Below are positions 7,936-13,227 of a stretch of DNA of 36,278 nt, piece by piece. Numbering within the stretch: the stretch's first letter is position 1; each line of letters opens with the position of its first letter. The DNA is taken from NCBI GenBank assembly GCA_947451425.1, contig CANGAC010000008.1:1-36278 (forward strand), written 5' to 3'. The DNA comes from Bacteriovoracaceae bacterium (GTDB lineage: Bacteria > Bdellovibrionota > Bacteriovoracia > Bacteriovoracales > Bacteriovoracaceae). The notes under the pieces are model-generated. The model searched no databases. It was given only the letters and a program-made list of their open reading frames with translations, and had not been told where the DNA came from. The position numbers were made by a program, and so were the translations under genes.

Positions 7936-8727
7936 ATGAAGCAAATGGTGATTGATCGCGTGGAAGGTCTGGGGAAGTCGATCCTCGACAGTATCAATGG
8001 ACTCGGAGAGTTCACGAACTTCACGATGAACACGATTTACTGGACGTTCAAGCCGCCTTACCGCTTCGTTCTTCTTTTTGATCAGCTCTATTTCATCGGC
8101 AACAAATCCATCTTTATCATCTTTCTCACCGCGAGTTTTACCGGGGCCGTTTTTGCTTTCCAGATTTATTCAGGCTTCAAGGCGATCAACACAGATTCCT
8201 TTATCGGGCCCATCGTGGCGATTGCTCTGGCAAAAGAACTCGCTCCTGTTCTTTCCGGTCTCGTGGTGGCCGGTCGATGTGGAGCTGCGATGGCTGCACA
8301 GATCGGATCCATGAAAGTCACTGAGCAGATTGATGCCCTGGAAGTGATGGGGATCAATTCGTATCAGTATCTCGCGGTCCCAAGAATTCTTGGAGCGATG
8401 ATTGGTCTTCCGATGCTCTCGGCACTTTTCCTCGCGATTGGGTACTGGGGATCGTGGCTCGTGGGGACAAAAATCCTCGGCATTGATCCCATCATGTACA
8501 CACAGAAAATTTCCGACATCATGAATTTAAGCATGGTCGCCGAGGGCCTCATCAAGGCAACGGTGTTTGGCTATCTCATCGGCATCATCGGTACGTACCA
8601 GGGCTTCACAGTTACTGGTGGTGCTGAAGGTGTTGGTAAGGGCACGAACATGGCCGTGGTGTGGGGGATGATTACCGTCCTCGTTGTCGACTTTTTCCTT
8701 ACGAGTTTTCTCGTGAAGGTACTTTGA
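7936..8727 (+). CDS. mlaE: MlaE-family ABC transporter permease
   Basis: A 263-residue inner-membrane permease of the MlaE/YrbE family, which works with an ATPase and an MCE protein to move phospholipids between the membranes. It has about five hydrophobic segments. The family core PVLSGLVVAGRCGAAMAAQI and the stretch EQIDALEVMGINS are very typical. It overlaps mlaF by one base (TGATG) and lacks its own clear ribosome site. Confidence 0.93.
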   Translation: MKQMVIDRVEGLGKSILDSINGLGEFTNFTMNTIYWTFKPPYRFVLLFDQLYFIGNKSIFIIFLTASFTGAVFAFQIYSGFKAINTDSFIGPIVAIALAKELAPVLSGLVVAGRCGAAMAAQIGSMKVTEQIDALEVMGINSYQYLAVPRILGAMIGLPMLSALFLAIGYWGSWLVGTKILGIDPIMYTQKISDIMNLSMVAEGLIKATVFGYLIGIIGTYQGFTVTGGAEGVGKGTNMAVVWGMITVLVVDFFLTSFLVKVL

Positions 8728-9485
8728 TGGCCGAAAGATACAAAGGCGAATTTTCAGTCGAGTTCGATCACCTGGTGAAAAACTTCGGGACTTCGCCGGT
8801 TCTTCGCGACGTGAGTTTCGGCATTCATACCGGAAAGATCACGACCATCCTTGGATTCTCGGGCGCCGGAAAAACCACGCTCATGAAACATATTCTAGGC
8901 CTCGCCAAACCGACGTCCGGAAGGGTGAGTGTATTAGGCCAGTGTTTGAATGATATGTCGGAGCTTGAACTTCGTGAGTTCCGCCGGAATTTCGGGATGG
9001 TTTTTCAGTACGCGGCCCTATTTGATTTTCTCACGAGCTACGAGAATGTGGCGTTCCCGATGAGAGAGTTCACGAAGATGAACGAAGAAGAAATTAAACA
9101 AAAAGTTATGGGCCTTCTGGATTCCGTCGGCATTTCAAAAGAAGCTGCCTATAGATTACCCTCTGAACTATCCGGAGGGATGAGAAAAAGAGTGGGTCTT
9201 GCCCGCGGTCTCGCCCTCGATCCGCACATCATGCTTTATGATGAGCCGACCTCTGGTCTCGATCCCATCACCACTCATGTGGTTTACGATCTCATGCGGG
9301 ACACTCACCGTGCGAATGAAAAAAACGGATTCACCTCGATCATCATCTCCCACGATATTCATGCCACACTAAAATACTCTGACTACATCGTTTTCATGGA
9401 ACAGGGAAAGGTAGTTGAGCATTTAGATGTGGAAACATTTAAGCGTTCGGAAAATCCCGTCATACGAAGATTCCTTGAGTTATAA
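8727..9485 (+). CDS. mlaF: MlaF-family ABC transporter ATPase
   Basis: A 252-residue ATPase paired with the preceding permease. Walker A GFSGAGKT is at residues 43-50, the Q-loop glutamine at 94 (FQYAALFD), the signature LSGGMRKRVGLARGLA from 148, Walker B at 168-173 (IMLYDEP) and the switch histidine in IIISHD. FQYAALFDFLT is typical of the MlaF branch. The ATG shares one base with the mlaE stop. No MlaB-like STAS protein is encoded nearby. Confidence 0.93.
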   Translation: MAERYKGEFSVEFDHLVKNFGTSPVLRDVSFGIHTGKITTILGFSGAGKTTLMKHILGLAKPTSGRVSVLGQCLNDMSELELREFRRNFGMVFQYAALFDFLTSYENVAFPMREFTKMNEEEIKQKVMGLLDSVGISKEAAYRLPSELSGGMRKRVGLARGLALDPHIMLYDEPTSGLDPITTHVVYDLMRDTHRANEKNGFTSIIISHDIHATLKYSDYIVFMEQGKVVEHLDVETFKRSENPVIRRFLEL

Positions 9486-9552
9486 CCGGAATCGCTTAGA
9501 ATAAATTTAATAACCGATTAGCGTGTTATTGAATTTTGACGGAGTAAAATTC

Positions 9553-10932
9553 TTGAACCCACTTAAAGTAGGATTGCTGACATTGGCGGCGATGGCCAGT
9601 GTAGTGGTGATGTCACTTAAGATCACGTCAAACCAGTCCGGGTTTGGATCTCATGTTGAATACAAAACCATCCTGAAAGATGCCTCAGGCATCTTCGAAA
9701 AAACACCTATCAAAGTGGCCGGTATCAACGCGGGCCGGATCAAGAAAATTGAACTCGTGGGCTCTGAAGCTCTCGTAACTTTTGAGATCCAGGAAAAAGT
9801 TCTCGTCACTCCGAATGCAAAACTAAAAATCAAGAGCGTTGGTCTTCTCGGCGACAAATTCATCGACATGGATCTGGGTGAAGGCGAAGGCCAGAGGCTG
9901 AAAGAGGGCTCTCTCATTTCCACTACCGGTGGCGGTGGCTTCGATGATCTCGCCAAAGATGCGTCCGCCGTCCTGAAAGAAGTGAAAGATATTGCTGTGA
10001 CCATCAAGGAAGCTCTTCGGGATGAGAAAGGCGATAACGTCGTGAAAAAGATCATGGCGAACATCGACGACATCACTTCGAGTCTTAAACGCGTTACGAC
10101 TGGTAACGAAACGAAACTCAATCAGATCGTAGAAGATGTCCGTGCGGTTGCCGAACAGCTCGCGTTTGAAACGGACCGCTATCAGAAAGATTCTCTCATG
10201 GCCGATCTCTCGAAAATCGGGCCGATTCTCGATAAGGCCGACGCTGCCGTGTCTGATATCAAAGTCATCATCGCCGACGTGAAAGACGGTAAAGGTACTG
10301 TCGGTAAACTTCTGCGGGATGATGCAGTCGTCGACCAGGTTTCTCAGACTCTCTCTTCAGTGAACCGCCTGGTTAACCGGATCAATAACATCGAAGCTGA
10401 TATCGGACTTTCAACCGGTGCCAATACCAGAAACGGATCTGATACAAGATTTGATATTGATATTTATCCGGCACCGGAAAGATTCTTCCGTCTTGGTATC
10501 GTCACGAACGACTTCGGTCCTCAGAACGAACGCAAGCAGGAGACCTACACCAGTATCAACAACGGGACAGAAACCAAGAAAAATACCCGGAAGATTAACA
10601 AGGACTCTTTCAAGTTCAACCTTCAGATCGGCCGCCGGATCCAGCGCTACGGACTTCGCGCAGGTCTGATCGAATCTACCGGTGGTGTGGGTTTCGATTA
10701 CTACTTCCCGCAGTGGGGAACGCGTACAGGTGTCGAAATGTTTGATTACCAGAAAGACGCCGGACCGAATGTCCGTCTTTTCTCAGAAGTTAAGCTCTGG
10801 AACGTACTCTTCGCTCGTGTTGCGGGAGAAGATCTCATTTCGAAGAGTGGAAATACAAGTGCAACGATCTCGCTTGGTCTCCGGTTTAATGACCAGGATC
10901 TGGCGGCCCTCATCGGCTTGTTGGCAAGGTGA
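9553..10932 (+). CDS. mlaD: MCE-domain lipid transport protein with barrel-like C-terminus
   Basis: A 459-residue protein with an N-terminal membrane anchor (about residues 4-22) and one MCE domain (about 35-112: GIFEKTPIKVAGINAGRI). A long helical region (about 130-290) follows. The C-terminal portion (about 297-459) is made of short amphipathic strands rich in Gly, Tyr and Phe (FRLGIVTND, SFKFNLQIG, YGLRAGLIES) and resembles an outer-membrane beta-barrel. E. coli MlaD, at about 180 residues, lacks it. I chose the TTG at 9553 because GGAG lies eight bases upstream and it gives a normal anchor. A GTG at 9523 is in frame but has no ribosome site. Confidence 0.88.
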   Translation: MNPLKVGLLTLAAMASVVVMSLKITSNQSGFGSHVEYKTILKDASGIFEKTPIKVAGINAGRIKKIELVGSEALVTFEIQEKVLVTPNAKLKIKSVGLLGDKFIDMDLGEGEGQRLKEGSLISTTGGGGFDDLAKDASAVLKEVKDIAVTIKEALRDEKGDNVVKKIMANIDDITSSLKRVTTGNETKLNQIVEDVRAVAEQLAFETDRYQKDSLMADLSKIGPILDKADAAVSDIKVIIADVKDGKGTVGKLLRDDAVVDQVSQTLSSVNRLVNRINNIEADIGLSTGANTRNGSDTRFDIDIYPAPERFFRLGIVTNDFGPQNERKQETYTSINNGTETKKNTRKINKDSFKFNLQIGRRIQRYGLRAGLIESTGGVGFDYYFPQWGTRTGVEMFDYQKDAGPNVRLFSEVKLWNVLFARVAGEDLISKSGNTSATISLGLRFNDQDLAALIGLLAR

Positions 10933-10934
10933 CC

Positions 10935-11576
10935 ATGAGTAAGAACTGGCTCATCCGGACAAAATCGAATCATATCCTTGGACCTATCTCCAAGGAGAAA
11001 GTGCTGGAGCTTCTCCAGAACGGATCGATTAAGCCTGATGATGAAGTCTGTTCCGGTAATGGTTTCTGGTTCTTTATCCGCGAAGACGACATGGTCGCGC
11101 GTTTTCTTCTGGGCCGCGAACTTCAGACATTCAATCCCATCAGCGAAGCCAAAGATATTCTGACTTCTCCTCCGAAGGCCGGAGTGCAGGAAGAAGATAT
11201 CACCATGGTGAAAGGCCTCAATCTTGATCAGCTGATCAAGGAATCCAAGGGAGAGAAAGAAAAAACTCCTCCCAGCGGAACCTATGTTTCGCAATTGCCG
11301 GTAGCGGAAGTCAAAGCTCCTCCTGCCCCGGAAATAAAAAAAAAAGTTGAAGTAGCAGCACCGACACCCAAGCCGAAAGTCGTCAAGGCGAAATCGCCCA
11401 AGCCACCTCTCAAGAAACAAAATTACCTTCAGTACCTCGCCCTCCTTTGTTTTGCCATTCTCCTGGCCGCACTTTTGTACCGGAAAACGATTTTCCGCTA
11501 CTTCAAAGGTGCTGACATCAGTTTCATTAATTCGGCGCACGCGCAGGAAACAGCTCCGGCAGAAAAAAAAAAGTAA
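10935..11576 (+). CDS. GYF_2-like single-pass membrane protein; 0-frame product
   Basis: A 213-residue protein. Residues 4-50 (WLIRTKSNHILGPISKEKV to NGFWFFIRE) fit a GYF_2-type domain: a tryptophan start, GPIS, then a helix. A Pro/Lys/Ala-rich linker (about 112-162) leads to one transmembrane segment (164-182). The C-terminus ends in a lysine run encoded by A10. The ATG at 10935 follows AAGGTGA at good spacing, just after the mlaD stop. The stop comes directly after an A_AAA_AAG slippery heptamer, and the -1 frame remains open into the next ORF, so this may be the short product of a frameshifted gene. The role is unknown; the position suggests a partner of the MCE system. Confidence 0.85.
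   Translation: MSKNWLIRTKSNHILGPISKEKVLELLQNGSIKPDDEVCSGNGFWFFIREDDMVARFLLGRELQTFNPISEAKDILTSPPKAGVQEEDITMVKGLNLDQLIKESKGEKEKTPPSGTYVSQLPVAEVKAPPAPEIKKKVEVAAPTPKPKVVKAKSPKPPLKKQNYLQYLALLCFAILLAALLYRKTIFRYFKGADISFINSAHAQETAPAEKKK
11563..11573 (+). promoter_or_regulatory. A10-G slippery sequence, candidate -1 frameshift site
   Basis: Ten A residues (11563-11572) followed by G give the heptamer A_AAA_AAG in the 0 frame, identical to the E. coli dnaX site. The next codon is the stop TAA (11574). A weak 4-bp hairpin, GAGC (11579-11582) with GCTC (11587-11590), lies just downstream. An AGGA is 18 bases upstream. Transcriptional slippage adding one A would have the same result. Confidence 0.6.
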
Positions 11577-11653
11577 CGGAGCGCCAGCTCACCATTGGTA
11601 ACGTCACTTTTCAGACGGAAATCAATCTCAGCGGGCTCCGGGTCACCAGTTCC

Positions 11654-12694
11654 ATGTCACCAGACGCGTTCACCTGTGAAGACCTGAAAAGCGATATTAC
11701 CCAGCTCGGGATCATCCTGTATCCAGCTGACCGGCTCAATGAAAAATTCCTGATTAAGATCCGTCAGTGCATTCTGAAGCTACCGGAAGACCATCCGGTA
11801 AAACTCTGGTTAAAAAAAGCAGTGCAGACACTGCCTCTCTCTGCAGCTGAACAGAAAAAATCTGTCTTCATCACGGAGATTCTCACGTCGAAGTTCAATC
11901 TGATTACCGATCTGTCTGTTAAAAACCGGATCATCGAAGTCTTAATCGATGTGCCGGAAAATACCTTTTCAGAAAAACTCATGAAGTCGTATCTGTATCT
12001 CATGATCGGAAACGTCACCCGTTCGGATAATATTCTGCGGAGTATGATGCGGGAAGCTCCGGTCAGAAGCTGGGAAGGCTTCAGTACGACCCCTTCATTT
12101 TATCACCGCATATCACTGGAGAATCATGCGTCGATGATTGCGAAGATGGCCAAGCATCCCTCTGACCGGAAAACCTTCGAATTATTTTCTCTTTATCTCA
12201 AGTCTTTCATGAATGATCCAAAACTTCTCGAAGAGCTTGATGACACTGACATCAATCAGCTCGAGGGAAAACTGAGTCTTCTTTCGGTCGAAAGAATTGC
12301 TCCTGAGCTCGTCCAGTACCTGAGGTTTAAAAATCTCGACGAACAGCACCTGGTAGCAAGACTCAGAAAGGGAACGATTCCCCATCCCACCCAGGCCTAC
12401 TGGTTCTGGTATTTTCTCCCGGTGGATTCCCTGATCTCCGAAGCGTTTCTCCCGGAGCTATCGACCATTGAAGAAAATGATCCGCTCTGGTTTGTCTACC
12501 TGATGGAAAATGAAAAACTCTCTGATTTTTATGCCGGAAAAACCGGTAAAGCTTTTCTTCCGGGCAAGCGCCATCTTCTGCGCGCCCAACTTGAAAAACC
12601 AAAAGTGTTCATGCTCGCCCTCTGGAAACTGATTGAGCTTGGTGATATCGACCAGAAACTTGTTCAGGATACGGCGCGCTTTCTCACGCAATGA
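11654..12694 (+). CDS. Unknown helical protein, probably -1 frame extension of the upstream gene
   Basis: The first ATG in this frame gives 346 residues, but the frame is open back to the A10 run at 11563-11572. No ribosome site precedes this ATG. The 27 intervening codons (GTA at 11573 onward) read like protein. A -1 shift would fuse this part to the GYF_2/membrane protein, giving 586 residues with this part after the transmembrane segment, possibly in the periplasm. It is mostly helical, with two early cysteines (FTCEDL and IRQCILKL) and later segments that could be solenoid-like helices. I recognise no family. Its stop overlaps the next ATG in ATGA. Confidence 0.75.
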   Translation: MSPDAFTCEDLKSDITQLGIILYPADRLNEKFLIKIRQCILKLPEDHPVKLWLKKAVQTLPLSAAEQKKSVFITEILTSKFNLITDLSVKNRIIEVLIDVPENTFSEKLMKSYLYLMIGNVTRSDNILRSMMREAPVRSWEGFSTTPSFYHRISLENHASMIAKMAKHPSDRKTFELFSLYLKSFMNDPKLLEELDDTDINQLEGKLSLLSVERIAPELVQYLRFKNLDEQHLVARLRKGTIPHPTQAYWFWYFLPVDSLISEAFLPELSTIEENDPLWFVYLMENEKLSDFYAGKTGKAFLPGKRHLLRAQLEKPKVFMLALWKLIELGDIDQKLVQDTARFLTQ

Positions 12695-13227
12695 AAGATT
12701 ACCTCCAGCCGGATTTTTACCGCTTCAATGAGGATTCCCTGAAACTCGTGAAGGAAGTACTGAACTCTGGCATAAGGCCGGATTCCCTCCTGGATATGGG
12801 AGCGGGATCCGGAGTGATCGGCTTAGAACTCGCTAAAGTTCTCAGGCCCGGAAGGTTGGACTTCCTTGAACTCCAGACGGAATGGGAACCTTATCTTTCA
12901 GGAAATATCAGAGACTTCCTTCCCAAGGACGTTCAGACAAACGTTTTCTGGAATTCATTTTCTTCATGGGTTCCTGACCGCCAGTATGAACTAATCGTCT
13001 GCAATCCTCCTTACTATCTTCCCGGAAGAGGAATTCTCTCCCCGGACCCGGTTCGGGCGAGATGCAGAAGTTTTGAGGTGGATGACTGGGAGAGCTTATT
13101 ATCGAAATGCCTGTCTGCGCTCACACCAGATGGGATGGCATGGTTCGTATCACCGAAAGAGAATCAGGAATTGATAGAGAAACTCCGGTCAGGAAAAAAC
13201 GATCGACTTCAGTTCGTCTGGATATAA
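12691..13227 (+). CDS. TrmN6-like N6-adenine methyltransferase
   Basis: A 178-residue class I SAM-dependent methyltransferase. The SAM-binding motif DMGAGSG is at residues 35-41 and the catalytic NPPY at 105-108 (LIVCNPPYY), the signature of enzymes that methylate an exocyclic amine. Its size and layout match the tRNA1(Val) A37 N6-methyltransferase (TrmN6/YfiC) group, but the substrate cannot be read from the sequence and HemK-like targets are possible. The start overlaps the previous stop (ATGA). Its 3' end overlaps the convergent dciA gene by 19 bases. Confidence 0.85.
   Translation: MKDYLQPDFYRFNEDSLKLVKEVLNSGIRPDSLLDMGAGSGVIGLELAKVLRPGRLDFLELQTEWEPYLSGNIRDFLPKDVQTNVFWNSFSSWVPDRQYELIVCNPPYYLPGRGILSPDPVRARCRSFEVDDWESLLSKCLSALTPDGMAWFVSPKENQELIEKLRSGKNDRLQFVWI

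Follow-up and report, generated by a model that had tools for sequence, protein, structure and literature searches.

The question raised by this locus is whether two reading frames that meet at a run of ten A encode two proteins, or whether they form one gene whose short and long products arise by slippage. The window is the whole stretch of 36,278 nt that was analysed, from a bacterium of a clade that includes predators of Gram-negative bacteria, and the features discussed here are collected in the table. The first frame starts at ATG 10935, 2 nt after the end of the mlaD stop codon, and encodes, in order, an N-terminal GYF-like domain, a Pro/Lys-rich disordered linker, one membrane helix, the motif A-x-A-Q, KKK and the stop. 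Its junction run (site 2) reads GAA AAA AAA AAG TAA in this frame, with a G and then TAA at 11574-11576, and the heptamer A_AAA_AAG occupies 11567-11573, correctly in register. From the run onward the -1 frame stays open until a stop at 12692-12694, and the joined product, whose junction would read AEKKK/VTER, would have 213 + 373 = 586 aa. A preliminary description, made from the letters alone, had given the same A10, stop, open -1 frame, heptamer and product length, all of which were right. It missed a conserved A-run 227 nt upstream (site 1).

Table. Features of the window around the two A-runs
Feature	Coordinates	Strand	Description
ORF1 (M form)	10935..11576	+	213 aa; PF14237 (GYF_2) at 15.6 bits on the N-domain, below the gathering cutoff of 25.8; invariant N-terminal residues; GYF fold matches
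Site 1, upstream A10	11336..11345	+	Between GYF-like domain and membrane helix; conserved in genus
Site 2, junction A10, where slippage is proposed to join ORF1 and the C-terminal ORF	11563..11572	+	
C-terminal extension, -1 frame	11573..12694	+	Stop after 373 aa; an alpha-helical solenoid follows a short beta element
mlaE, mlaF and mlaD homologues, upstream	7936..10932	+	MlaD domain (1.3e-13); synteny
Small methyltransferase gene, downstream	12691..13227	+	MTS domain; synteny; 4-nt overlap with the long-form stop

Relatives, in which the preliminary description had proposed to compare run length and frame, give a clear picture. A homologue of the downstream protein is present in 25 of 26 genomes of the genus and in a small number of the family's other genera, and a scan of named genomes placed the group in Bacteriovoracaceae/Halobacteriovoraceae. 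In the 30 loci first examined (genus and nearest genera), the junction always has A9 to A12, mostly A10, with the -1 phase in 21 loci, a fused frame in 8 and the +1 phase in one (L011, A11). Using N-domain and C-domain profiles, we tallied 61 two-domain loci, which are related and so not independent, and nearly all of which come from MAGs; it turned out that the junction run has at least 7 A in 57 and at least 9 A in 55, with A10 as the mode, while the C-domain is in the -1 phase in 45 loci, in frame (fused) in 11 and in the +1 phase in one. Thus 45 of 46 broken genes are in the -1 phase, as L003 and L012 are. In the -1-phase genes the run always has at least 9 A (9-14), and the zero-frame stop lies a median of 2 codons past it; the later shifted-frame stop at the junction lies at the 30th percentile compared with other positions. 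Since the genomes are mostly MAGs, phases seen in a single locus (L011, L024, L014) may be assembly errors.

The run itself is under selection. A protein tree of the genus and the nearest genera forces at least three to four changes between the fused and the -1 state while the run mostly stays at A10, which points to selection on the run, and so does L007 (62% GC), which uses AAG and never AAA for its 28 Lys codons outside the run, yet keeps A10. The junction run persists throughout the whole bacterial family and beyond it. Such runs are also rare. In pattern searches, A10 matches only 11 times in the whole 3.29-Mb assembly (both strands), and two of the matches, 227 nt apart, are in this gene; in a relative assembled as one contig (G025, 4.15 Mb) no more than five runs reach 10 A, and two of them, including the longest (A11), are in this gene. 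That runs so rare in the genome are paired in one gene argues for more than chance. Another, unrelated gene, for a secreted protein (307-aa segment), also carries an in-frame A10 (L113:1190-2110 on C172 of the same genome; L130). In its nearest relative (G018) the frame breaks close to an A8 at the equivalent position. Its other relatives, taken as a control and judged by their longest run, showed no run of at least 10 A.

Protein conservation is seen in both frames: residues of the N-part are invariant, and the C-domain could be aligned in 29 genomes (29 rows), where it is conserved from the run onward. The first ATG of the second frame (11654) lies 27 codons downstream of the run and lacks a Shine-Dalgarno sequence, as noted before. 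These 27 codons had been said to read as protein, and the alignment bears this out, as does the model of the C-domain (pLDDT 88.6), whose first beta strands (residues 8-31) are coded between the run and this ATG or just across it. Around ATG 11654 the genomes share no conserved start codon, and five genomes have none at all in the first 60 codons. Because conservation begins at the run, the beta element precedes the ATG and no start is conserved, an independent gene starting at 11654, which had been named as a refuting case, is effectively excluded by the relatives.

To summarise the proposed mechanism, RNA polymerase would sometimes add (or drop) an A at site 2, yielding mRNAs in more than one frame. 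The unslipped message of this species would give a predicted M form, i.e. the GYF-like domain with the membrane helix, terminating just past the run, while a message with one extra A would give a predicted L form of M plus an extracytoplasmic helical domain of about 373 aa. In fused relatives these roles would be reversed. Comparison of homologous sequences lends strong support to slippage as the source of a short and a long product from one gene, and we consider it probable that the slippage is programmed and transcriptional. The conserved runs, the frames, the nearby stops and the coding right up to the run are observed. The polymerase as the slipping machine, the product ratios, the topology and a role tied to the adjacent MCE/Mla genes are what we infer.

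Site 1 may add a further product. In most loci of the genus it is A9-A13 and lies at about -216 to -242 nt relative to the junction; family-wide it has A9 or more in 31 of 61 loci, and many distant lineages have it in weaker form or not at all. The frame is unbroken through it in 52 of 57 loci, and breaks there were found in L014, L024, L062, L071, L100 and L171. In two of these, the distant L024 and L071, the frame breaks by +1 at site 1 (A11 and A12, respectively) and by -1 at site 2; their long form would thus need two slips. In the window, the shifted frames stop after site 1 at TGA 11348 and TAG 11353. For 26 genomes of the genus, the distance from site 1 to the later of the two shifted-frame stops has a mean percentile of 0.09 when the other positions in each gene's own linker serve as reference. 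Such nearby stops in either shifted frame suggest that slippage at site 1 serves to end translation: within the genus a slip either way would stop it at once and release a predicted soluble S form of about 138 aa, with the GYF-like domain only. With the second conserved run, up to three products would be expected. More tentatively, two serial poly-A sites may divide the transcript family-wide among a soluble, a membrane-anchored and a full-length form, with the polymerase setting the ratios, and thereby tune a GYF-like membrane adaptor for MCE lipid transport in Bacteriovorax-type bacteria, a reading to which we give slightly less than even credence.

Which machine slips could be judged from the surroundings of the run. 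Transcriptional slippage is recognised by a homopolymer of about 9 or more A/T at the frame transition that is conserved in homologues, and the run described above has this form in 55 of 61 loci. For -1 frameshifting of the dnaX type, the A_AAA_AAG register (AAG) is found in only 2 of the 45 -1-phase genes, so that the heptamer of the window is incidental; neither an upstream Shine-Dalgarno sequence nor a stem-loop is conserved, and the mean z of a downstream hairpin is -0.18 in 30 genomes. With the heptamer not conserved and stimulators lacking, transcriptional slippage is favoured over ribosomal frameshifting. The preliminary description had proposed one gene with ribosomal or transcriptional slippage at a dnaX-type heptamer; its one-gene claim gains from the comparison, which among its two mechanisms favours the polymerase, while the heptamer does not hold as a conserved element.

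The main rival is that ribosomes slide by -1 on the AAA/AAG Lys codons and make the L form so, with no appreciable slippage of the polymerase. The phase bias among the broken genes (45:1 for -1 against +1) and the perfect A_AAA_AAG of the window would fit it, and ribosomes are described as sliding on poly-A without stimulators (PMC4363877). However, a run of 6-7 A would be enough for them, whereas every -1 gene has at least 9, and besides the rare register and the missing Shine-Dalgarno sequence and hairpin, the stops after site 1 are close in both shifted frames, not just in -1, and one relative needs +1. The characterised precedents of the same layout (tssM1, Thermus dnaX) are transcriptional, which was counted for the polymerase. 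Altogether we regard ribosomal sliding as unlikely, though of real weight.

Two other explanations place the change in the DNA or in the data. Replication slippage could toggle the run and switch the L form on and off, since a long homopolymer sits at the frame junction and each of the three phases is seen at least once. But the length is mostly A10 and the phase changes without it, the +1 phase is nearly absent, the phase is mostly -1 while the length ranges from 9 to 14, and L005 and L006, about 97% alike, have identical runs; a contingency locus would differ in length between close relatives and shift its phase with it, which the between-genome comparison does not show. Such phase variation is very improbable. 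Still less probable, to a degree that we disregard it, is that a single intact, fused gene had its homopolymer misread in sequencing or assembly. The genome is indeed a MAG of 328 contigs and fused relatives exist, but the same -1 phase recurs in 45 loci from mostly independent assemblies, usually with A10, including the record of Bacteriovorax sp. BSW11_IV (L092, NZ_AUNE01000028, itself A10). This error, which had been named as the main alternative, is therefore rejected and effectively excluded by the relatives. Relatives with a fused frame and no A-run, which had been expected to speak for an error, are limited to a few distant lineages, and most fused relatives keep A10.

Programmed transcriptional slippage is thus the preferred reading, and some lineages indicate how far it extends. 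L103, L164, L165 and L168 are distant, have a single fused frame without a long junction run and represent natural L-only forms; slippage is therefore not universal. In L080, L083, L087, L088, L089 and L094 the gene ends directly after the membrane helix, and neither a C-domain nor a run of at least 9 A near the end was found. These lineages retain the GYF-like domain and the membrane helix, which suggests that the M form works alone. Taken together, the lineages that lost the C-domain and those that are fused without a long run argue that the short form and the long one would each have a use.

For the N-domain, Foldseek matched the GYF fold in 7ruq_A with probability 1.00 and a TM-score of 0.63 by target (E-value 0.73, whole-length query), a likeness of fold only. 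In the model of the natural fused relative L004 (pLDDT 83), a GYF-like domain is followed by a disordered linker, a single membrane helix and then a helical C-domain, in agreement with the earlier proposal that the long form places a helical domain beyond the membrane segment (predicted). A fold search with the C-domain gave no match at E<0.001 and only weak helical-repeat proteins. The A-x-A-Q just before the junction run (window 11530-11560) is nearly invariant in relatives and resembles a signal peptidase I site, though about 20 residues past the membrane helix; if it is one, cleavage would free the C-domain. The order mlaE-mlaF-mlaD-gene-methyltransferase-dciA is kept in most loci examined, while a few, such as L066, L083 and L087, have no mla genes nearby.

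To our knowledge, clear programmed transcriptional slippage in ordinary bacterial genes is limited to few cases (dnaX, tssM, some secretion genes), usually in one or two species. In Citrobacter rodentium, tssM1 has an A11 and undergoes transcriptional frameshifting with an added A, and its Yersinia counterpart has the opposite phase (PMC4256274). Like tssM1 and tssM3 of Yersinia pseudotuberculosis, our gene has the poly-A shortly before a stop and no frameshift stimulators; as in tssM1, an extra A restores a C-terminal extracytoplasmic domain (here predicted), and a relative is fused and slips (here would slip) to the short form (PMC4256274). Unlike it, those are an unrelated protein in two genes with a single run (PMC4256274), whereas here the run is family-wide and accompanied by a second run that has stops shortly after it in either shifted frame. 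Thermus thermophilus dnaX slips transcriptionally at A9 (PMC1088944), and a dnaX with 10 A is also known (PMC3711429). The likeness lies in the A9-A10 and in short and long forms, which polymerase slippage gives there (PMC1088944, PMC3711429); in contrast, dnaX is a different gene with a single site, in fused phase in Thermus. In partial searches of the literature, where an earlier mention elsewhere is possible, we found no report on transcriptional slippage in Bacteriovorax or on programmed frameshifting in Halobacteriovorax, and the sole match for Bdellovibrio was a soil virology paper. The accessible parts of the large GeneTack survey and of a 2016 review mention neither Bacteriovorax nor Bdellovibrio.

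In conclusion, a run is retained across a bacterial family in a gene adjoining lipid-transport genes, which annotation pipelines would split in two or call a pseudogene. Naturally occurring variants, namely fused genes with or without the run, -1 genes with it and genes that have lost the C-domain, open its function and evolution to tests. Bd0075 of Bdellovibrio bacteriovorus, a GYF-TM-TPR protein essential for predation, likewise has a cytoplasmic GYF-like domain, a membrane helix and an extracytoplasmic helical-repeat region, a likeness of layout only; it differs in its 965 aa and two extracytoplasmic domains, and no slippage was reported for it (PMC12034629). A Bdellovibrio protein of similar layout is thus needed for predation.
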